Assembly: GCA_030606865.1 (NCBI GenBank)
Contig: JAUWFQ010000003.1
Coordinates: 1-40,552 of the forward strand
Length of the DNA stretch: 40,552 bases
Origin: a bacterium
Lineage (GTDB): Bacteria; Fidelibacterota; Marinisomatia; Marinisomatales; JAHJCW01
Direction of reading: 5' to 3'
Of this stretch, positions 2,341 through 18,363 are shown one piece after another; within the stretch, counting starts at the first letter, position 1, and each line of letters begins with the position of its first letter. The notes under the pieces are model-generated. The model was not told the DNA's origin and searched no databases. It worked only from the letters and a program-made list of their open reading frames with translations. The translations under genes and the position numbers were made by a program.

Positions 2341-4680
2341 ATGGCATTCACAAAAGAAATCATCGATTTCTCAAACCTAAGTAGGGATGAGATTCGTGAA
2401 CGCCTTAATGAATTAAACATACCACTTACCGTTGATGAAACCTTAAAAATCCAAAATGATATGCTTGGCAGAGCGCCATCGCTTGCGGAGTTGGTATTGT
2501 TTTCAATTGAGGGCTCCGAACATTGTTCTTATAAAAGCAGCCGCAATCATTTGAAGCAGTTTATAACAGATGGTCCAAATGTAATATTAGGCGCAAAAGA
2601 AGATGCCGGTGTCGTTGCAGTGGTAAGCGATAATGAAGGTCATCGCTATTGCGTAGTTATAAGCCACGAATCACATAATCATCCATCGCAAATTGTACCT
2701 TACGAAGGTGCTGCAACCGGCATTGGCGGAAACGTCCGTGATGTATCGTGTATGGGTGCCGAAGTAATTGCTTTAGCGGACGGTTTACGCTTCGGTGATA
2801 TAAAATCGAGTAAAAGTCTTTGGATCCATGAGGGCGTGGTTGATGGGATTGCCGGCTATGGAAACCCGCTTGGCATTCCAAATATTGGCGGCGATCTATA
2901 TTACGATGAGGGATATAACGAAAATTGTTTGGTGACTATCGTGACATTGGGGATTGTTCGCAAGGATGAAATTTTACATTCTTACGCACCAAAAAACGCA
3001 GTCGGACACGACATAATATTAGTTGGTAAACCAACCGACAATAGTGGCTTTGGCGGAGCAAGCTTCGCTTCGCTAGAATTGGAAGAAGAGAAAAAAGAAC
3101 AAAACAAAGGAGCAGTGCAAGAGCCTAACGCATTTTTAGAAAGACATATACTAAAAGCATCATATTCTTTATTTAGATTGCTTAAAGACAAGGGGTTTAT
3201 TGACAAAGTAGGTTTTAAGGATTTGGGTGCCGGTGGCGTTGCTTGTGCAAGCGTTGAGCTCGCCGAAACTTCCGGATACGGTGCTGAGGTTTGGTTAGAT
3301 AAAGTACATAAGAGTATGGACAATCTACATCCTTCGGTAATTCTTTGCTCAGAAACACAAGAACGTTTTATGTGGATATCACCTTCTGATATCACTCCAA
3401 TTATTTTAGATCATTACAACAATAAATATGATTTCCCCGGCGTTTCTAATTTAGCGCAAGCCCGAGTTATCGGGAAAATCCGTGATGACAATCAGTACAT
3501 AGTTCATAATAATGGTGAAGAAATTGTTAATGCTCCCGCCACAGAGGTAACTCGAGGCTTCCTATATAACCGTCCTTTTAAAAAACCGGAAAATAATTTT
3601 TACGAACCGCAGATATCCGAGCCAAAAGATTATAATAAAATATTATTGGAACTATTATCACACGAAAATATCGCATCGCGTGAAGCAATTTTTGAAACTT
3701 ATGACAAGCAGGTACAGGGTCGTACAAAAATTGAAGCTGGTAATGCCGATGCCGGTGTAATTGCACCTTTCAATAGTGATAGATATCCTAAAGAAATTAG
3801 AAATGTGGGAATTGCGCTATCTACAGATCATAACCCACGTTATGGAAAAATCGATCCGTATTGGGCAGCAGTTAATGCTGTTGCAGAATCAATGCGAAAC
3901 GTAGTAGCTGTTGGCGCTGTTCCGGTTGCTATGACAGATTGCCTATGCTTTGGGAATCCGGAGAAACCGGAACAAATGTGGGAATTTGCTGAAGCAGCAC
4001 GTGGTGTTGCGGAAGCTTGCAAAAATATACATTTGAAAGAACATCCTGAATCAGCTACGCCCATTGTTGCCGGAAACGTTAGTTTTTACAACGAAACAAA
4101 AAGTGGTGCGATCCCGGCAAGTCCGATCATTAGTTGTACCGGGAAAATGGACGATGTCAACCTTGCCATTACTTCCGATTTCAAAAAGGTAGATTCAGAG
4201 ATTTATTTGGTCGGCAGTCGCAAAAATGAGTGTGGCGGAAGTGTTTATTATTCTATTTTTAATGAATTAGGAAAAAATTTACCAAAACCATCATTTAAAG
4301 AAATTGAATCACAAATTTTTTCTGTGACTGATATTATCGAAAATAATTTAGCTTTATCTGCTCATGATATCAGTGAAGGCGGTATCGCGGTTGCCCTTGC
4401 TGAAATGTGTTTTATGAACAATATTGGCTGTGATGTAATTATTCATGGTAATCTAAGAACTGATACATTGCTTTTTTCTGAGACTGGAGGATTTATTGTA
4501 GAGGTTCCAAAACAGAACATCAATAAAGTGCAACATATTCTAAATAAATACTCTTGTGAATATTTTAAAATAGGAACAACTATTTCAGACAAGATTATTA
4601 GCATTAATAATGTGATTAAAGTTCCTGTTAAGGATGCCAAACAAGCTTGGGAGAATGGGTTGCGTGAAAAACTGCTATAA
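2341..4680 (+). CDS. purL: Phosphoribosylformylglycinamidine synthase, PurL subunit (small type)
   Basis: 779 aa; [60 protein letters not shown]; size of the small PurL that needs PurQ and PurS. Confidence 0.96.
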   Translation: [779 protein letters not shown]

Positions 4681-4758
4681 TCACAGAGGATACAGAGAAA
4701 AGAATAAAAAAAGTTTCAAGATTCAAGGATAAAGACAAAAACTTTACAAATAAAAACT

Positions 4759-5178
4759 ATGAAACAAACACACTTTATTAAGAACCTTCAGGACGTGAAA
4801 GAGGAACAACATTACATTGATAAACCAGTAGAGCTTTACCGTACGCGAAAACGTCTTGGTAAAACAGCCGGTGCGCAAAATATTGGTATTAACTATTGCT
4901 ATCTAAAACCTGGGCAATTATCCTCAAAACATCACTATCATACCAAAGAAGAAGAATTCTTTTTTCTTCTAAGTGGTAATGCACTTTTAAAGTATGGTGA
5001 TGAGGAATATAACTTAAAATCTGGTGATTTTGTTTCTATTCTACCGGGTGGACCATCGCATCAACTTCGAAATGACTCAAATGAAGAATGCATTTATTTA
5101 GCAATTGGAATACGTGATTCAGAAGATTCGGTAATATATTCTTGTGAAGAAATCGTTTGTGAGGAGAATAAAGAATGA
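4759..5178 (+). CDS. Cupin-domain protein of unknown function embedded in the purine operon
   Basis: 139 aa; KHHYHTKEEEFFFLLSGNALLKYGDEEYNLKSGDFVSILPGGPSHQLRND fits the two cupin motifs. Confidence 0.85.
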   Translation: MKQTHFIKNLQDVKEEQHYIDKPVELYRTRKRLGKTAGAQNIGINYCYLKPGQLSSKHHYHTKEEEFFFLLSGNALLKYGDEEYNLKSGDFVSILPGGPSHQLRNDSNEECIYLAIGIRDSEDSVIYSCEEIVCEENKE

Positions 5179-5223
5179 TTGATGAAAGGAAATATTCAAT
5201 AATCAATTTATTAATAAATCTTA

Positions 5224-6276: not shown

Positions 6277-7548
6277 ATGAAAAGTTCAGTTAAAATAGCA
6301 GTTATTGTATTTCCAGGTACTAACACCGAGCGAGAAACTTTCATGGCGGTAAGACGCGCCGGTATGGAACCGGTTGAGTTCTTATGGAATAATGATTATA
6401 GTATTTTAGAGAAATGTGACGGATATATAATTGCCGGGGGTTTCTCTTATGAAGATCGTTCCCGAGCAGGTATTATTGCTTCATTAGATCCGGTTATGAA
6501 AGAAATCCGCAAACAGGCAGAAAAGGGGAAACCCGTCTTAGGTATTTGCAATGGAGCTCAGATTTTAGTCGAAGCCGGTATGGTTCCGGGATTAAAGAAC
6601 TATCAACTCGGCATCGCGCTAACAGACAATAAAAGAACTAAAGAAGGACATGTACTGGGCACCGGTTATTATAACAACTGGGCAAATTTATTTCTTTCCG
6701 TTCCAAGCGGCAGAACCGCCTTTACACGACATTTACAACAAGGACAAAATATTTATATTCCATTTGCTCATGCTGAAGGGCGTTTTGTGATGCCGGAAGA
6801 ATTGTTAGAAGAACTAATAGAGAACCAACAAACAGTCTTCCGCTATGGCGATAGCGATGGAAATATCACGCTGGAGTTTCCGACAAATCCTAACGGGTCG
6901 ATATATAATTTAGCAGCGGTATGCAATCCACAAGGAAACGTGATGGCACTAATGCCTCATCCCGAGAGGACATCAAATGGAGATGCAATTTTTACATCAA
7001 TGCGAGAATACATTGTAGAAAACATCAAACTACAGGACAAAGTCCCTACATATTCTGCAGATGAATACATAATTAAACCATACAAATCAGACACGAATTC
7101 AATTGAATGGTTTATTGAATCAATTATTACTGATAACGAAGCTGTCTCTGTTCAGAATGCGTTAGACCATTTACAAATACCGGTTACTGTAAGTAAGCAG
7201 AACTATTGGAAGATTGGTTTGAATTCTGATACTTCATATGAAATTGAAAACAACATTAATAAATCCGGCGAACTTTTCAATTCGAATAAGGAACGCTTAG
7301 TTAAATTTCAGAATCGTCCTAAAACTTCCTGTTTTCTTGTTCGTCCAAAAGAAGATTTATTAGGCCGCCAGAAAAAAGAGATCCTTAACCATCATTTTAA
7401 AATCAAAAACTTACAATATATTCAAAGTGGTGTGCTGTGGAAAATAACTGTTAATGATGATAACTTTGATAAGACAATATCCAAGGCACTAAAAACAAAC
7501 ATATTTTTTAATCCATTTTCCCATGATTGCTATGAAATACAAAAATAA
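6277..7548 (+). CDS. purQ: PurQ glutaminase subunit fused to a C-terminal extension with two PurS-like domains
   Basis: N-terminal ~265 aa: VIVFPGTNTERETFMAVRRAG, PVLGICNGAQILVEAGMVPG, ALMPHPER. C-terminal last ~75 aa (CFLVRPKEDLLGRQKKEILNHHF...VLWKITVNDDN...NIFFNPFSHDCYEI) aligns by eye with PurS; the preceding ~75 aa looks like a degenerate second copy. Confidence 0.93.
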   Translation: MKSSVKIAVIVFPGTNTERETFMAVRRAGMEPVEFLWNNDYSILEKCDGYIIAGGFSYEDRSRAGIIASLDPVMKEIRKQAEKGKPVLGICNGAQILVEAGMVPGLKNYQLGIALTDNKRTKEGHVLGTGYYNNWANLFLSVPSGRTAFTRHLQQGQNIYIPFAHAEGRFVMPEELLEELIENQQTVFRYGDSDGNITLEFPTNPNGSIYNLAAVCNPQGNVMALMPHPERTSNGDAIFTSMREYIVENIKLQDKVPTYSADEYIIKPYKSDTNSIEWFIESIITDNEAVSVQNALDHLQIPVTVSKQNYWKIGLNSDTSYEIENNINKSGELFNSNKERLVKFQNRPKTSCFLVRPKEDLLGRQKKEILNHHFKIKNLQYIQSGVLWKITVNDDNFDKTISKALKTNIFFNPFSHDCYEIQK

Positions 7549-10271: not shown

Positions 10272-11747
10272 ATGTGTGGTGTTGTTGGACTAATTTCACA
10301 AAAACCTGTTGCCAGTGAATTATACGATAGTTTGATTTATCTCCAACATCGCGGGCAAGATGCCGCGGGAATTATTACATATAACCGCAGATTCCACACC
10401 AAGAAAGGCGTTGGCTATGTTAGAGACATTTTTGACGAACGAAATATGTCGCGATTAAAAGGTAATATCGGCATAGGACATACAAGATATCCTACTACCG
10501 GTAAATATGATAAGGAAGATGCCCAGCCAGTTTGGACCGGCGTTCCGTACGGAATTGCTATGGCTCATAATGGTAATCTTGTTAATCATCGAGAGCTTTT
10601 GTTAGAATTGTCACAAAAGGACGGAAGGCATCTAAATACATCAGTTGATGTTGAAGTAATATTGCATGTTTTTGCAGGCAAACTAGAACAATTAAGAAAT
10701 ACGGACAATAATGGTAACTTTTTCGACCATATCTGCCAAGCCACACAAGAGGTTCACAAAAGAGTTAGCGGTGCTTATTCTGTAATTTGTGTGATTATTG
10801 GCAAAGGAATGGTTGTGTTCCGCGACCCTCATGGAATTCGTCCATTAACTAGAGGAGAGCGACTTTCTACTAACGGAAAACCTGATTACATATTTGCCAG
10901 TGAGCCTTCTGTATTTTATTCTTTAGGGTTTGAGTCAAAATCCGATGTTGCACCCGGCGAAGTAATTTATATATCCGAAGACAGTCATTATCATTCAAAA
11001 ATATTATCTTCAAAGAAATTCACTCCCTGTATATTTGAGTATGTTTATTTTGCCCGACCGGACGCAATCCTCGACGATGTAAGTGTTTACAGATCGCGCC
11101 TTAGAATGGGACAAAATTTGGCTAATGCTTGGAAAACTAAATATCCTAATGTAACTCCTGATATCATTATCCCTGCACCGGCCACATCCAACAACGCTGC
11201 CTTAGCGATGGCGAATGAAATGGGTGTGCGTTATTCTGAGGGATTATATAAAAATCCTTTTATCGGTCGTACATTTATAATGCCGGGACAACAAAAACGC
11301 AAAAAATCTATTCGGCATAAGCTTGTTCCTCTATCATTTGAAATAAAAGACAAAGACGTAATGATAGTCGATGACAGTATTGTACGTGGGAATACAAGTC
11401 AGGAAATTGTTAAAATGGTGCGTGACTTTGGTGCTAAGAAAATATATTTCGTTTCTGCTTGCCCGCCATTAGTAAATCCTTGCTTTTATGGCGTTGATAT
11501 ACCAACTCGTTCTGAATTAATTGCACCGAATATGTCTATCGAAGATATACGAAAATATATAAATGTAGATATTTTATTGTATCAAGAATTGGATGATTTG
11601 ATCGAAGCAGTAACAAGAAAAGGGGAACACGAAATCTATAGACCTTGCGCCGCTTGTTTGGATGGTAATTATGTTACGGGCGATGTTAATGGAAATAAAA
11701 TCAATGCACTTGAAAAACAACGTATAAAAGAGCGTAATTCTCTATGA
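10272..11747 (+). CDS. purF: Amidophosphoribosyltransferase
   Basis: Starts MCGVVGLISQKPVASELYDSLIYLQHRGQDAAGI (N-terminal Cys nucleophile); PRT motif DVMIVDDSIVRGNTSQEIV. Confidence 0.97.
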   Translation: MCGVVGLISQKPVASELYDSLIYLQHRGQDAAGIITYNRRFHTKKGVGYVRDIFDERNMSRLKGNIGIGHTRYPTTGKYDKEDAQPVWTGVPYGIAMAHNGNLVNHRELLLELSQKDGRHLNTSVDVEVILHVFAGKLEQLRNTDNNGNFFDHICQATQEVHKRVSGAYSVICVIIGKGMVVFRDPHGIRPLTRGERLSTNGKPDYIFASEPSVFYSLGFESKSDVAPGEVIYISEDSHYHSKILSSKKFTPCIFEYVYFARPDAILDDVSVYRSRLRMGQNLANAWKTKYPNVTPDIIIPAPATSNNAALAMANEMGVRYSEGLYKNPFIGRTFIMPGQQKRKKSIRHKLVPLSFEIKDKDVMIVDDSIVRGNTSQEIVKMVRDFGAKKIYFVSACPPLVNPCFYGVDIPTRSELIAPNMSIEDIRKYINVDILLYQELDDLIEAVTRKGEHEIYRPCAACLDGNYVTGDVNGNKINALEKQRIKERNSL

Positions 11748-13060
11748 ATATCCTAATTGTCGGTTCGGGTGCTCGCGAACATGCAATTGCACGTTCTATT
11801 AAAAAATCAAAGGTACCTAATAAATTATACTGTTTAGCGTCAAATCGAAATCCCGGTATTGAAGAAATTTCGGAAATTTTAGAAATTGGCAAAATAGCCA
11901 ATCCCAATACTGTTACAAATTTTGCTAGAGAACATTCGATAGATTTGGCAATTATAGGACCCGAAGCCCCATTAGCAAATGGCGTTGTTGATTCGTTGCA
12001 GCAGATTAATATTCAATGTGTGGGTCCCACTAAAGATTTAGCGCAAATTGAAACTAGTAAAAGTTTCACGCGCGATTTAATGAGAAAATATGATATCCCG
12101 GGCTGTCCGGATTATCAGACTTTTAATAATCTAAATAATGTATCAGAATATTTAAATACATTAGGTGAAAATTATGTTATCAAATTCGATGGTTTAATGG
12201 GCGGTAAGGGTGTTAAGGTGTCCGGTGAACATATTAACTCTCACGCGGAAGCTATTGAATATTGTGAACAAATTATTGCAAAAAATGGAAAATTTGTTAT
12301 TGAAGAAAAACTTATTGGAGAGGAGTTTTCGTTAATGAGCTTTTGTGATGGTGAACACTTAATACACATGCCGCCTGTTCAAGATCATAAACGTGCGTAT
12401 GAAAACGATACCGGTCCTAATACCGGCGGAATGGGATCTTACAATGATACAAATCAGACATTGCCCTTTCTAACAAACAATGATATTGATTCCGCAAAGG
12501 CGATAAATATCGCAACTGCGAAAGCATTAAAAAAAGAATTTGGAATTGGTTATAAGGGTATTCTTTATGGTGGTTTTATTGCAACAGCGGATGGGGTTAA
12601 GGTAATTGAATATAATGCGCGCTTCGGAGACCCCGAAGCAATGAATGTTTTTTCCTTATTACAAAGTGACTTAATTGACATATTTCTTGGTATAGCCAAT
12701 TCATCTCTGCATAAGTGCGAGGTAACCTTTAGCAATAAATCCACGGTATGTAAATATGCCGTACCGGAAGGATATCCCGATTCGCCGATTAAAGGTGAAC
12801 GCATAGATATATCAAAAGTTGAAAACCATGACCAATTATACCTTGCTTCCGTTGATTTGAAAAATAATATATTACTCGAATCCGGCTCAAGAACAGTTGC
12901 CGTTGTTGGAATTGCCGATACATTACAAGAAGCTGAAGCGATTGCTGAAAGTGAAATTAAACATATTATAGGACCCTTATTTCATCGAACAGATATTGGA
13001 ACAGAAGCACTAATTCAAAAACGGATTAAGCATATGATTACTATTAGAGATTTATCCTAA
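11744..13060 (+). CDS. purD: Phosphoribosylamine-glycine ligase; overlaps purF by 4 nt
   Basis: NILIVGSGAREHAIA, KFDGLMGGKGVKVSG, GPNTGGMGSYN, EYNARFGDPEAMNV. Confidence 0.97.
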   Translation: MNILIVGSGAREHAIARSIKKSKVPNKLYCLASNRNPGIEEISEILEIGKIANPNTVTNFAREHSIDLAIIGPEAPLANGVVDSLQQINIQCVGPTKDLAQIETSKSFTRDLMRKYDIPGCPDYQTFNNLNNVSEYLNTLGENYVIKFDGLMGGKGVKVSGEHINSHAEAIEYCEQIIAKNGKFVIEEKLIGEEFSLMSFCDGEHLIHMPPVQDHKRAYENDTGPNTGGMGSYNDTNQTLPFLTNNDIDSAKAINIATAKALKKEFGIGYKGILYGGFIATADGVKVIEYNARFGDPEAMNVFSLLQSDLIDIFLGIANSSLHKCEVTFSNKSTVCKYAVPEGYPDSPIKGERIDISKVENHDQLYLASVDLKNNILLESGSRTVAVVGIADTLQEAEAIAESEIKHIIGPLFHRTDIGTEALIQKRIKHMITIRDLS

Positions 13061-13066
13061 ATTGAA

Positions 13067-16000
13067 ATGATGATTCAATCCTATTTAAAAGAAATTGCCG
13101 ATATCATTATTCGGGGTGATTATAGAGAAGAAACTTTTTATCCTGCGCTTAAGTCATTTTTAGAAGAATACGGAAAATCCATTGGTAAAAAGAAAACAGC
13201 TGTTACAGTTCTCCCGAAAAAAACAGAAGCAGGTAATCCTGATTTTCGTGTCTGGGACGGAGAACATGAAATTGTTGGTTATATAGAAGCCAAACAGCCC
13301 GGGACAAACCTAGATCAGATCGTAACAAGTGACCAGTTAAAACGCTATTTAAAAATATTCCCGAATCTCATTTTAACAGATTTTTATGAATTCCAGTTGT
13401 ATCGCAACGGAAGTGAAATTGATCGTGTTTCAATCGGCCGCCCTTTTATTGCTAAAAAACTTAAAACTGTTCCACCTGTTGAAAACGAAGATGAATTCAA
13501 TTCATTGTTAGGAAAATATTTTGGCTTTATTCTTCCCGCAATAAATGATGCTGAAACATTGGCAAAAATATTGGCGGATAAAACCCATTTCTTAAAAAAC
13601 GAAGTTGTTGCAGAAGAATTAGAAGAAGAATCCTCAGGTTCCGGGCATCTTCTGGGGTTTTATGATGCATTTCAAAAACATCTTATTTCCGATCTAACAC
13701 GGGGAAGTTTTGCCGATCTTTTTTCGCAAACATTGGCTTACGGTTTGTTTGCTGCCCGGACACGCGCAACAAACAGTTTTAATCGAAAATTAGCTTACGA
13801 ATATATCCCATCAACCATTGGTATTCTTCGGGACGTTTTCAGATTTGTTTCATCAACAGATTTGCCTAAACCTTTAGAAGTCATGATTGACGATATTGCG
13901 GAAGTCCTGCAGAAGACGAATGTAAAGAAAATCCTTCAGGATTATTACCGTGACGGAAAAGGCGAAGATCCCGTTGTCCATTTTTATGAAACATTTCTAA
14001 ATCATTATGATCCCACCATCCGAGAAAAGCGTGGGGTTTATTATACACCATTGCCTGTCGTTCATTATATTGTTCGATCCCTTCATCATTTAATGAAAAC
14101 AAAATTTGGGTTGGAAGATGGTTTTGCTTCCAAGGATGTAAAATTATTGGACCCTGCCGGTGGAACACTCACCTTTCCCGTGGAAGCTATCAAGGTGGCT
14201 GTAGAAGAATTTGTATCTAAATACGGTGACGGTGGAAAACATAATCTTATCAAAAATCAAATTCTACAGAATTATTATGCCTTTGAACTTATGATGGCGC
14301 CATATGCTATTGGTCACATGAAAATCGGATTCATGTTGGAAGAGTTGGGGTACAAATTGGAAGCCGATGACCGCTTTAATCTTTATCTCACAAATACGCT
14401 TGACATGGAAGATTTTAAACAAACCAATATGCCTTTTGTCAAAAGTTTGAGCGAAGAAAGTAAACTGGCAGGAAAGGTGAAAAAGGATGAACCTATTCTG
14501 GTCATTTTAGGCAATCCGCCTTATTCCGGAATTTCATCTAATTTCAACGATTGGACGGAAAAACTATTGAAAGAAGATGTGGATGGTGCCCAAAGTTATT
14601 ATACTGTTGACGGTAAACCGCTTGGGGAAAAGAAACTCTGGCTACAGGATGATTATGTGAAGTTCCTGCGCTTTGCACAGTGGAAAATCCATAAAACAGG
14701 TTATGGTATGGTAGGTATGATTACTAACCATTCTTATCTGGACAATCCCACATTTCGGGGAATGCGCCAAAGCCTGATGAACACTTTTGATGAAATCTAC
14801 ATTTTGGATTTACATGGAAATTCTTTGAAAAAAGAAACCTGCCCTGATGGGAGTCCTGACATGCCTGTCTTTGACATTCGTCAAGGTGTGGCTATTGCAT
14901 TGTTCGTGAAAAACAAACATTCCGATGGTTCCAACCTTTCAAAAAGTTGTAAGGTCGTCCATACCGATTTATGGGGAAAACGAAATTCAAAATATGAATG
15001 GCTGGAATCTCATTATGTAAAAAATGGCAGTTATAAAAAGTTAGAGCCAAAAACCCCCTGGTATTTTTTCATTCCAAGAGATGTGGCGGGTATTCAGGAA
15101 TATTTAGAATGGCCATCTATTAAAGATGTTTTTCCTTTGAATGTAACTGGTATTGTAACCGCTCGAGATAAGTTCGTCATCAATTTTTCCAAAAGAGACT
15201 TAGAAAATAAAATGTTGCAGTTCAGGAATTTGTCTTTACCTGATGAAACAATACGGCAAGCCTTTAAACTAAAGGATACGCGGGGTTGGAAATTACCGGA
15301 AGCAAGAAGGAAAATTGCAGAAGACAAAAAGTGGAAGAATTATTATCAGGATGTTTTATACCGACCCTTTGACGAAAGAAAAATTTATTACACAGAAACA
15401 ATGGTTGATTGGGGACGTCCTGAATATATGCGCCACATGCTGACCGGAGAAAACTTAAGTTTATGTTTTATGAGACAGTTTTCAGGAAATGTCCCTTACA
15501 GTCACTTTTTAATAACGGAGCATATGGTTGATAATAGAACCTTTTTTAGTAGTAAAGGAATAATTCAACAGGCGCCCCTTTACCTTTACCCTGAAGAAAA
15601 AGAGAAAAAACCTAAATCCGGTGTACCGCTGATGATGTTTGAACCAGAAGTCCACTATGGCAAGGAAGGGAAACAGCCCAACATAGCCCCTGAAATATTT
15701 GATATGCTTAAAGAATCTTTCGGAAGAACACCAACACCGGAAAAGATACTCTATTACATTTATGGGGTTTTCTACAGCAATCACTATAGAACGAAATACA
15801 CTGAATTTCTGAAATTCGATTTTCCCCGTGTGCCTTTTACAAAAGATAAAGATGTGTTTAATGCCATGGCAAAATTGGGACAGAAACTTGCCGAATTGCA
15901 TTTGCTAAAAAGTTCTGTTCTGAACCGTCCTGTTTCCAAATATGAAGGCAGCGGTACAAATGACACAATAGATAAACCTATATTTAATGAAGAAGAAAAA

Positions 16001-16225
16001 AGAATTTATATCAATGCTGACAAATATTTTTCAAATATCAAACCGGAAGTATGGGATTATCATATCGGCGGATACCAAGTTTTAGCAAAATATATAAAAG
16101 ACAGAAAAAACAGACAAATGAATGATCCACGCCATTACTGTAAAGTGATAACAGCATTAAAGAAAACAATTGAAATCCAGAAAGAAATAGACAAATTATA
16201 TCCGAACGTAGAAAAGAATTTGTGA
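13067..16225 (+). CDS. Single-chain type ISP/IIG-like restriction-modification enzyme (PD-(D/E)XK nuclease plus N6-adenine methyltransferase plus specificity region)
   Basis: 1052 aa; nuclease-like GNPDFRVWDGEHEIVGYIEAKQPG; MTase motif I LLDPAGGTLTFPVEAI and motif IV ILGNPPYSG; RGVYYTPLPVVHYIV; FELMMAPYAIGHMKIGFMLEELGY. No helicase motifs noticed. Confidence 0.88.
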   Translation: MMIQSYLKEIADIIIRGDYREETFYPALKSFLEEYGKSIGKKKTAVTVLPKKTEAGNPDFRVWDGEHEIVGYIEAKQPGTNLDQIVTSDQLKRYLKIFPNLILTDFYEFQLYRNGSEIDRVSIGRPFIAKKLKTVPPVENEDEFNSLLGKYFGFILPAINDAETLAKILADKTHFLKNEVVAEELEEESSGSGHLLGFYDAFQKHLISDLTRGSFADLFSQTLAYGLFAARTRATNSFNRKLAYEYIPSTIGILRDVFRFVSSTDLPKPLEVMIDDIAEVLQKTNVKKILQDYYRDGKGEDPVVHFYETFLNHYDPTIREKRGVYYTPLPVVHYIVRSLHHLMKTKFGLEDGFASKDVKLLDPAGGTLTFPVEAIKVAVEEFVSKYGDGGKHNLIKNQILQNYYAFELMMAPYAIGHMKIGFMLEELGYKLEADDRFNLYLTNTLDMEDFKQTNMPFVKSLSEESKLAGKVKKDEPILVILGNPPYSGISSNFNDWTEKLLKEDVDGAQSYYTVDGKPLGEKKLWLQDDYVKFLRFAQWKIHKTGYGMVGMITNHSYLDNPTFRGMRQSLMNTFDEIYILDLHGNSLKKETCPDGSPDMPVFDIRQGVAIALFVKNKHSDGSNLSKSCKVVHTDLWGKRNSKYEWLESHYVKNGSYKKLEPKTPWYFFIPRDVAGIQEYLEWPSIKDVFPLNVTGIVTARDKFVINFSKRDLENKMLQFRNLSLPDETIRQAFKLKDTRGWKLPEARRKIAEDKKWKNYYQDVLYRPFDERKIYYTETMVDWGRPEYMRHMLTGENLSLCFMRQFSGNVPYSHFLITEHMVDNRTFFSSKGIIQQAPLYLYPEEKEKKPKSGVPLMMFEPEVHYGKEGKQPNIAPEIFDMLKESFGRTPTPEKILYYIYGVFYSNHYRTKYTEFLKFDFPRVPFTKDKDVFNAMAKLGQKLAELHLLKSSVLNRPVSKYEGSGTNDTIDKPIFNEEEKRIYINADKYFSNIKPEVWDYHIGGYQVLAKYIKDRKNRQMNDPRHYCKVITALKKTIEIQKEIDKLYPNVEKNL

Positions 16226-16818
16226 CCTCTGTGGCAAAAAAAATAAAACTGGGTATTTTAGGGTCGATCAAAGGAACCGATCTACAAGCAATTATTAATT
16301 CTATAGATAAAAAAAAGTTAGATGCTACTCTTGAAGTAGTTATCAGCAATTCTTCACATGCTTATATTCTTGAACGTGCTGCAAATCATAATATTCCTAA
16401 CTTTTTTATTTCACATTTAAGTAAAACCCGTGAACAATTTGATAATGAAATATCAGTAATATTAAAAAAGTATAACGTCGATTTAATATTATTGATTGGA
16501 TTTATGCGTATTTTATCCGCTGAATTTTGTAACGAATGGAAAATGCGCATTTTAAACGTGCATCCTTCTTTGCTTCCCAAATATGCTGGTGGAATAGATA
16601 TGAACGTTCATGAAGAAGTTATCAAAAATAAAGAGACTGAAACCGGCTGCACGATTCATTTTGTAACTGAGGCTGTTGATAGCGGACCAATATTAATCCA
16701 GAAGAAATGTTCAGTCGATAAAAACGAAACGCCGGAATCACTAAAAACAAAGGTTCAAGCATTGGAAGGCGAAGCTTTTATTGATGCTATTAAATTATTT
16801 CAAAAAAATAATTATTAA
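16222..16818 (+). CDS. purN: Phosphoribosylglycinamide formyltransferase; GTG start overlaps the R-M stop (GTGA); GTG at 16231 is an alternative
   Basis: 198 aa; LILLIGFMRILSAEF, MRILNVHPSLLPKY, ETGCTIHFVTEAVDSGPILIQKK. Confidence 0.94.
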   Translation: MTSVAKKIKLGILGSIKGTDLQAIINSIDKKKLDATLEVVISNSSHAYILERAANHNIPNFFISHLSKTREQFDNEISVILKKYNVDLILLIGFMRILSAEFCNEWKMRILNVHPSLLPKYAGGIDMNVHEEVIKNKETETGCTIHFVTEAVDSGPILIQKKCSVDKNETPESLKTKVQALEGEAFIDAIKLFQKNNY

Positions 16819-16824
16819 ATAAAT

Positions 16825-18363
16825 ATGAATAAATCCATTACGACTATCAAACGAACACTTATTTCTGTTTATGATAAAACAGGCATAGTTGAATTAGCAA
16901 AATATTTAAGTGACAAGGGTATTGAAATTCTTTCAACCGGAGGAACGGCAGAACATCTTAGAAACGCCGGCATTGAAGTAATTGATGTATCTGATTATAC
17001 CGGTTTTCCTGAGATTATGGACGGGCGCATTAAAACTATCAATCCTAAAATAGAAGGTGGAATTTTAGGGTTGCGTGATGTGCACAAATCCGAAGCTGAA
17101 ACTCAAAATATTAAATGGATTGACCTTGTTGTGTGCAATCTTTATCCCTTTGCTGATACAATTAGTAAACCTAATGTTTCTCTCAAAGAAGCGCTTGAGA
17201 ATATCGATATCGGTGGACCGACTATGATCCGTAGCGCTGCCAAAAATATCGGATGGGTTGGCGTATTAGTTGATGTATCTGATTATCAATCAATTATCAA
17301 TGAGCATAAAATTTTAGGTGGTTTGTCTTCCGAAACTCGCAAGCTGCTTTCTGCAAAAGCGTTCGGTCACTGTGCTCAATATGACAGCATAATTCACAGT
17401 TATCTGAATGATGACCTCCTTCCACAAACTTTTTCTCCTTCATTTAATAAATCTTATGATTTGCGATATGGTGAAAATCCACATCAAAAAGCTGCAGCAT
17501 ATAAAAATCCGATCAGGAATACTCAAAATATTTTAGATGCTACAATACATCAAGGTAAAAAATTATCATATAATAATTTAATGGATGCGGACGCCGCTCT
17601 TTCTTGTCTCAGGGAATTCTCCGATTCTACGTGTGTAGTCGTTAAACATGGCAATCCCTGTGGAGTCGCTTCCGGCGATGACATTACCAACGTTTATAAA
17701 AAAGCTTTTGACGCGGACTCCAAATCGGCTTTTGGCGGAATAATTGTTCTTAATCGAACCTGCAATAAAACTATCGCTGAAATGATCAACAAAATTTTTG
17801 TTGAAATTGTAATAGCGCCGAATTATGACTCTACGGCTTTAGAGATATTGTCAAATAAAAAAAATTTACGTGTATTGGAGATAAATAAAATTGTTCCTAA
17901 AACCCAAAATATTGAATATCGCTACATTAGTGGCGGACTGTTGGTTCAAGAATCCGATGTAAGTACCATTACCGAAAATCAATTAAACATTGTTACAAAA
18001 AAGAAACCGTCAACATCTGAATTAGCCGATATGATATTTGCGTGGAAAGTGTTAAAGCATGTCAAATCCAATGCTATAATTACTGTTGAGGACAGAATAA
18101 CTTTGGGGATTGGTGCCGGCCAAGTATCGCGAGTTGATGCAGTTGAACTTGCGCTAAAAAAATCCGGTGATAAATTAGAAGGTTCTGTTTTAGCATCTGA
18201 TGCGTTTTTTCCTTTCCGCGACTCAATCGATTTAATCGCCGATACCGGCGTGACGGCTATTATTCAACCAGGTGGTTCAATTCGGGATCAGGAAATTATT
18301 CAAGCTTGTAACGAACACGGAATTATTATGGTATTTACCGGAATACGCTGTTTTAAACATTAA
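16825..18363 (+). CDS. purH: Bifunctional AICAR transformylase/IMP cyclohydrolase
   Basis: 512 aa; ALISVYDKTGIVELAKYL-like N-terminus, STGGTAEHL, DLRYGENPHQKAA, VVKHGNPCGVA, QPGGSIRDQEII. Confidence 0.97.
   Translation: MNKSITTIKRTLISVYDKTGIVELAKYLSDKGIEILSTGGTAEHLRNAGIEVIDVSDYTGFPEIMDGRIKTINPKIEGGILGLRDVHKSEAETQNIKWIDLVVCNLYPFADTISKPNVSLKEALENIDIGGPTMIRSAAKNIGWVGVLVDVSDYQSIINEHKILGGLSSETRKLLSAKAFGHCAQYDSIIHSYLNDDLLPQTFSPSFNKSYDLRYGENPHQKAAAYKNPIRNTQNILDATIHQGKKLSYNNLMDADAALSCLREFSDSTCVVVKHGNPCGVASGDDITNVYKKAFDADSKSAFGGIIVLNRTCNKTIAEMINKIFVEIVIAPNYDSTALEILSNKKNLRVLEINKIVPKTQNIEYRYISGGLLVQESDVSTITENQLNIVTKKKPSTSELADMIFAWKVLKHVKSNAIITVEDRITLGIGAGQVSRVDAVELALKKSGDKLEGSVLASDAFFPFRDSIDLIADTGVTAIIQPGGSIRDQEIIQACNEHGIIMVFTGIRCFKH

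Follow-up and report, generated by a model that had tools for sequence, protein, structure and literature searches.

Searches for restriction-modification (R-M) genes usually turn to defence islands, to prophages or to integrative elements; here, an R-M enzyme is encoded in the middle of a purine biosynthesis operon. The stretch of DNA analyzed here, referred to as the window, is the whole 40,552-nucleotide contig C140 of a 2.03 Mb MAG (185 contigs, 92% complete) from a marine bacterium of the Neomarinimicrobiota; public records of its relatives carry the name Candidatus Neomarinimicrobiota. It contains a complete purine operon with all genes on the + strand, in the order purA-purL-[cupin]-purM-purQ-purC-purE-purB-purF-purD-RM-purN-purH. 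Family searches confirm purD, purN, purH, purF, purB, purE, purC, purQ and purM, with purL and purA farther upstream.

Position of the R-M gene in the operon

The R-M gene (13067..16225, + strand) opens with an ATG and follows purD (11744..13060, +; TIGR00877) after a 6-nt spacer, AATTGA. Its TGA stop (16223-16225) overlaps the first GTG of purN (16222-16224) as GTGA, and a second in-frame GTG for purN is present at 16231. purN (16222..16818, +; TIGR00639) is followed by purH (16825..18363, +; family search), the last gene of the operon. A preliminary description of this DNA had reported the 6-nt distance to purD and the TGA/GTG overlap with purN, both of which agree with the ORF coordinates; the interval it quoted, 13061-16233, exceeds the ORF by a few bases at both ends, and its placement of the gene within a housekeeping operon is borne out by the family searches on the flanking pur genes.

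In a consensus scan, promoter-like matches in the window showed no excess (32 found vs 32.5 expected from shuffles) and no terminator was seen at the purD/RM or RM/purN junction. No promoter or terminator that would isolate the gene, the finding by which the preliminary description would have been refuted, is visible. One weak promoter-like match on the + strand (16170-16199) lies directly upstream of purN, which may have an internal promoter. The R-M gene is most likely read from the purine operon transcript without a promoter of its own. A putative link between R-M dose and purine status is plausible, as is a putative retention of the gene through polarity on the genes downstream. In the ORF map no recombinase, transposase or clustered defence genes adjoin the R-M gene, this test for a defence island or mobile cargo resting on its direct flanks, purD and purN, with the window genes beyond them annotated in part.

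Two other features of the operon were observed. PurQ (6277-7548 of the window) is 423 aa long, and its C-terminal 189 aa have no Pfam match. The cupin gene (4759-5178, 139 aa) is inserted in purL-purM, with a possible decayed repeat arm before purM (region 4680-5223).

Domain organization of the enzyme

The product had been described as a 1052-aa single chain combining a PD-(D/E)XK nuclease with an N6 methylase, and matches from Pfam, PADLOC and DrdV all confirm this. Type_ISP_C (PF18135; Pfam, 1.1e-83), the DNA-specificity domain, covers residues 687-1037 (15125..16177, +), N6_Mtase is also found, and the PADLOC model REase_MTase_IIG (PDLC03610) matches at 8e-257 over most of the protein, the only difference being the genomic setting. 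In alignment with relatives, the nuclease motif AGNPDF...GYIEAKQPG lies at residues 55-81 (13229..13309, +), methylase motif I, LLDPAGGTLTFP, at residues 359-375 (14141..14191, +), and the motif IV region, GNPPYSG, with its invariant NPPYS, at residues 477-493 (14495..14545, +). NPDF and EAK are invariant in the relatives that cover the nuclease region and align with PD...ESK of DrdV, and the catalytic cores as a whole (PD-ExK, motif I, NPPY) are invariant across about 30 relatives. Motif I, DPAGGTLTFP, had been considered unusual; it is ordinary for the family, since all aligned relatives carry DPA[GA]GTLTFP. A degenerate motif I is thereby ruled out, and the motif gives no evidence of inactivity.

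Nuclease, N6 methylase and specificity domain are all found in one chain, the arrangement of Type IIG/IIL enzymes. A PDB sequence search returned DrdV as the best match (8.5e-48, its N-terminal nuclease matching separately), followed by LlaBIII and LlaGI. DrdV (Type IIL/IIG; PDB 7LO5/7LVV) is likewise a single chain, of ~1030 aa, in which an N-terminal PD-ExK nuclease is followed by a gamma-class N6 methylase and a C-terminal specificity domain; it differs in sequence, identity being about 20%, and in that the present gene sits in a purine operon. An AlphaFold2 model of the protein (pLDDT 79, pTM 0.55) aligns with DrdV over almost its full length (E 5e-40, 1142 columns), so that DrdV ranks first among PDB entries in fold as well as in sequence. 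With LlaBIII and LlaGI (Type ISP; PDB 4XQK, 5FFJ) the likeness is in the methylase and the Type_ISP_C specificity half, whereas the present protein is 1052 rather than about 1578 aa and has no SF2 helicase/ATPase, no helicase domain having been found in it by Pfam or the PDB sequence search. The enzyme is thus Type IIG/IIL-like rather than Type ISP, and translocation-dependent cleavage, as in LlaBIII and LlaGI, is not expected. Judged by its sequence, the protein is a functional-looking, single-chain Type IIG enzyme of an ordinary family, with predicted nuclease and methylase activities.

Occupied and empty sites among relatives

Close relatives, in which the preliminary description proposed to look for occupied and empty sites, provide both. 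In two genomes of the same genus, G001 and G002, purD stands next to purN with neither scar nor repeat. Occupied sites are found in another family: a single 84.7 kb contig of G005 carries purD-RM-purN, and in G018 one contig ends in purD-AAA(DUF4143)-RM and the next carries RM-purN. Between the host (G000) and G005, the R-M proteins are about 88% identical in amino acid sequence (88.7%) vs 63.0% for purD and 68.2% for purN, and the difference at four-fold sites is 0.41 in the R-M gene vs 0.71-0.77 in the flanks. As the R-M gene is more alike across families than purD and purN, and the same-genus sites are clean and empty, horizontal transfer is implied. Across families the R-M gene shows a dS of 0.72, on a par with the 0.65-0.74 by which G000 and its sister genome G002 differ through vertical descent, a divergence that would be the expected trace of a transfer about as old as the split of those two genomes. 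With a dN/dS of 0.09 in the between-family comparison, these values indicate that the gene was acquired by horizontal transfer and kept under strong purifying selection.

A third carrier besides the host, G079, has a fragmented R-M copy at a locus other than the pur operon. This copy starts 14 nt after the nudix gene of a radA-tgt-nudix series and a bcp-like gene follows its C-terminal part, these four genes having been named by eye. Outside the order, relatives roughly 48-67% identical occur in Bacteroidota, Cloacimonadota, Chloroflexota and others, and the family is also present on 14 putative viral contigs; among the genome loci of these relatives none is in a pur operon. Several of them are fitted closely between housekeeping genes, for instance one between enoyl-CoA hydratase and biotin carboxylase genes (gaps of 14 and 14 nt) and another between exonuclease and RNase R genes (gaps of 41 and 2 nt). 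Such housekeeping neighbourhoods strengthen the earlier proposal that a one-gene R-M system can be inserted into housekeeping transcripts.

The repeat at the RM/purN joint

At the joint between the R-M gene and purN stands one copy of an 18-bp repeat, CTCTGTGNNCTCTGTGGC, that is dispersed in these genomes. This copy, with 2 mismatches (16218..16235, +), holds the R-M stop and both GTG starts of purN, and a degenerate inverted copy with 3 mismatches, located by pattern scan, lies at the purL end before the cupin gene (4680..4697, - strand); matches to CTCTGTGNNCTCTGTGGC in the window number 2 vs 0.05 expected. The R-M stop and purN start of the window fall within ATTTGTGACCTCTGTGGC, for which the counterpart in G005 is CTCTGTGAACTCTGTGGC. 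The repeat at this joint is common to G000 and G005 and is also present in G018, there with a 30-bp insertion inside. The G018 copy (L125, near 2860-2893) is split by a 30-bp palindrome, CCCGCCTG...CGGGCAGG, a case of one repeat type inserted into another.

Exact copies of CTCTGTGNNCTCTGTGGC number 96, distributed over 33 of the 121 genomes, while a reversed control gave 0. Twenty-three of the 96 lie in pur operons vs 0.76 expected by length, a strong enrichment (binomial p 2e-27, a value that overstates independence because the pur-operon copies cluster, nine of them in G045). Confinement of the repeat to pur operons is ruled out by its presence at menF-menD, menB-menA, purA-purL and prs-rplY, genes named by eye from sequence and not by family search. 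The idea that members of the R-M family always end in the repeat is also ruled out, as no copy lies downstream of relatives outside the order. Among the loci inspected, 22 copies precede an ORF of at least 100 codons, and for 17 of these the GTG of the repeat is in frame with that ORF (p 3e-5); proteins begun at this GTG read V-x-S-V-A; purN of the window, beginning V-T-S-V-A within the repeat, reads VTSVAKKIKLG. A left (inverted) copy was not found at the purD side of the R-M insert, which is therefore not a complete inverted-repeat element.

Origin of the insertion

The reading that probably accounts for the locus, held with some reserve, is that of a Type IIG R-M gene acquired horizontally at purD-purN via the repeat and read from the operon transcript. 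The lineage would have gained the gene by horizontal transfer exactly at purD-purN, where it probably joined to an existing copy of the 18-bp repeat, a marker of hairpins at operon junctions. The repeat at the 3' end of the gene would then give the stop codon together with the overlapping GTG of purN, so that purN would stay translationally coupled. The chain itself would methylate adenine in its target and cut nearby, the target being set by the C-terminal specificity domain. Two points favor a pre-existing repeat: in G045, G044 and G006 it stands directly before purN without the R-M gene (in G006 following HicAB), and the R-M C-terminus (VEKNL*) is truncated, ending 1-4 residues earlier than in most relatives, where the repeat provides the stop. 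The repeat is a candidate landing point for the R-M gene. Against this stand the missing left arm at the purD side and the single joint shared by G000 and G005, by which repeat targeting counts as one event and not two.

The repeat could instead be the 3' end of an R-M cassette, with gene and repeat traveling as one unit, whose shared location in the two families would come from transfer along with a small amount of flanking pur DNA. The RM/repeat joint and the start-codon boundary are identical in G000 and G005, and the first purN residues, KIKLGILGS, resemble those of G005 and not G002, as such a unit would have it; it is nonetheless an unlikely account, given that R-M relatives outside the order and the separate G079 copy have no repeat downstream and that the repeat is common without the R-M gene. 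An old insertion, inherited vertically but since lost from most lineages, with gene conversion keeping the R-M alleles of the carriers similar, would fit the same joint in two families, as well as the 97.6% identity of the R-M gene between G005 and G018 (genus g3), above the 87-95% of the flanks. The sites in G001 and G002 are, however, clean of any repeat or scar, and many independent losses would be needed across the order, making vertical descent distinctly unlikely.

It is very improbable that the protein is now a methyltransferase only, perhaps an epigenetic regulator with no restriction; its fold also resembles the CamA and BrxX/PglX methylases, but the protein keeps the nuclease motif NPDF...EAK intact, relatives show no variation in it, and the match to the restriction enzyme DrdV is full-length, N-terminal part included. 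An assembly artefact or chimeric contig, conceivable for a MAG of 185 contigs, can be dismissed, as the same arrangement in independent assemblies of two other species rules out misassembly of the contig junctions, a concern of the preliminary description, and the open frames are continuous on both sides.

Other inserts at pur junctions

The purD-purN junction is not specific to this enzyme. In a survey of as many as 121 genomes from the order, the window itself included, inserts of at least 500 bp occupy purD-purN in 9 of 83 cases (7 on one contig, 2 across contigs), purF-purD in 4 of 78 and purN-purH in 8 of 79, compared to 1 insert in about 72 junctions of leuB-leuA-leuC-leuD (Fisher p 0.03), a modest control counted by hand in 26 genomes only. 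Inserts at purD-purN include the present R-M gene, a Type III R-M with a VapBC-like pair, HicAB, VapBC-like pairs, DUF4143 ATPases (AAA) and a 23S-IVP relic, whereas other pur junctions hold MazE/PIN pairs, ParDE pairs and a RhuM-Fic protein, and also ordinary genes. The differing genes at purD-purN, along with the occupation of purF-purD and purN-purH, rule out an R-M-specific hotspot. The original interpretation is supported in part: a single-chain R-M enzyme does lie in the operon, the unusual motif I does not hold, and both the non-R-M inserts and the repeat had been missed.

Defence genes can thus settle in core metabolic operons, with purD-purN holding R-M or other mobile defence genes. 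A core biosynthetic operon is an unusual setting for an R-M gene, and the present case forms part of a wider pattern of repeat-linked insertion at operon junctions. It suggests a way for defence systems of a single gene to spread with neither promoter nor mobility gene of their own, and neighbourhood-based defence surveys may overlook R-M copies in core operons. The purine operons of the phylum offer a natural set of such insertions on which these ideas can be tested.

Several details of these inserts were observed. The G079 purD-purN insert, spread across two contig ends (L132, L133), is apparently a Type III R-M with a DUF433/PIN_10 VapBC-like pair, and ATGCCNACNTTAGACTGGAT (MPTLDWI) is the start of its Type III Mod gene (L132). 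A stub of ATGCCNACNTTAGACTGGAT persists in pur inserts of G018 and G006, upstream of the R-M start in L124 and of purN in L126, and its survival hints that defence genes have replaced one another in series. AT-rich repeats resembling TGGAATAATATTGG are found upstream of several AAA or toxin-antitoxin inserts (L124, L126, L128, L131) and may be promoters or operators of those inserts.

Hairpin elements of the order

Where copies of the repeat lie close together, all 14 of 14 groups are inverted (GCCACAGAG..CACAGAG---CTCTGTG..CTCTGTGGC). These inverted groups are either empty, forming strong hairpins of about 60 bp (z -7.3), or enclose small genes, typically GxxExxY; in a second element type, GTGTTNA arms enclose 23S-IVP four-helix genes or are empty. 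No Rfam family matched the hairpins. Elements of the GxxExxY type (TIGR04256 / PF13366 ORF between CACAGAG arms) have the same 18-bp repeat at their right end as the R-M insert, with the same stop/start overlap and operon-junction location, but the R-M insert lacks both a left arm and a GxxExxY gene.

It is possible, if doubtful, that the hairpins represent an undescribed class of mobile elements colonizing operon junctions, whose ends hold overlapping stop and start codons, already in place, by which operons would keep running, and which dock toxin-antitoxin, ATPase and R-M genes; this proposal covers the CACAGAG type (with or without GxxExxY) and the GTGTTNA type (with or without 23S-IVP), including the present R-M gene. 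The open literature searched held no descriptions of repeat-linked operon-junction insertions, and nothing relevant on GxxExxY or R-M genes in purine operons.

Hairpins are seen at many pur junctions in G045 (L186), G064 (L187), G088 (L188), G079 (L189) and G031 (L195), with arms of 9-bp period of the CACAGAG/CTCTGTG or GTGTTNA type that either enclose a small ORF or stand empty. GxxExxY genes (TIGR04256, PD-(D/E)XK fold) lie between inverted repeat copies at L165, L166, L188, L190 and L192, examples being an element of 409 bp at the purL-purM junction of G088 and one of 425 bp from G057. At purE-purB, in L188 and L191, four-helix genes of the 23S rRNA intervening-sequence type are found within GTGTTNA-type arms.
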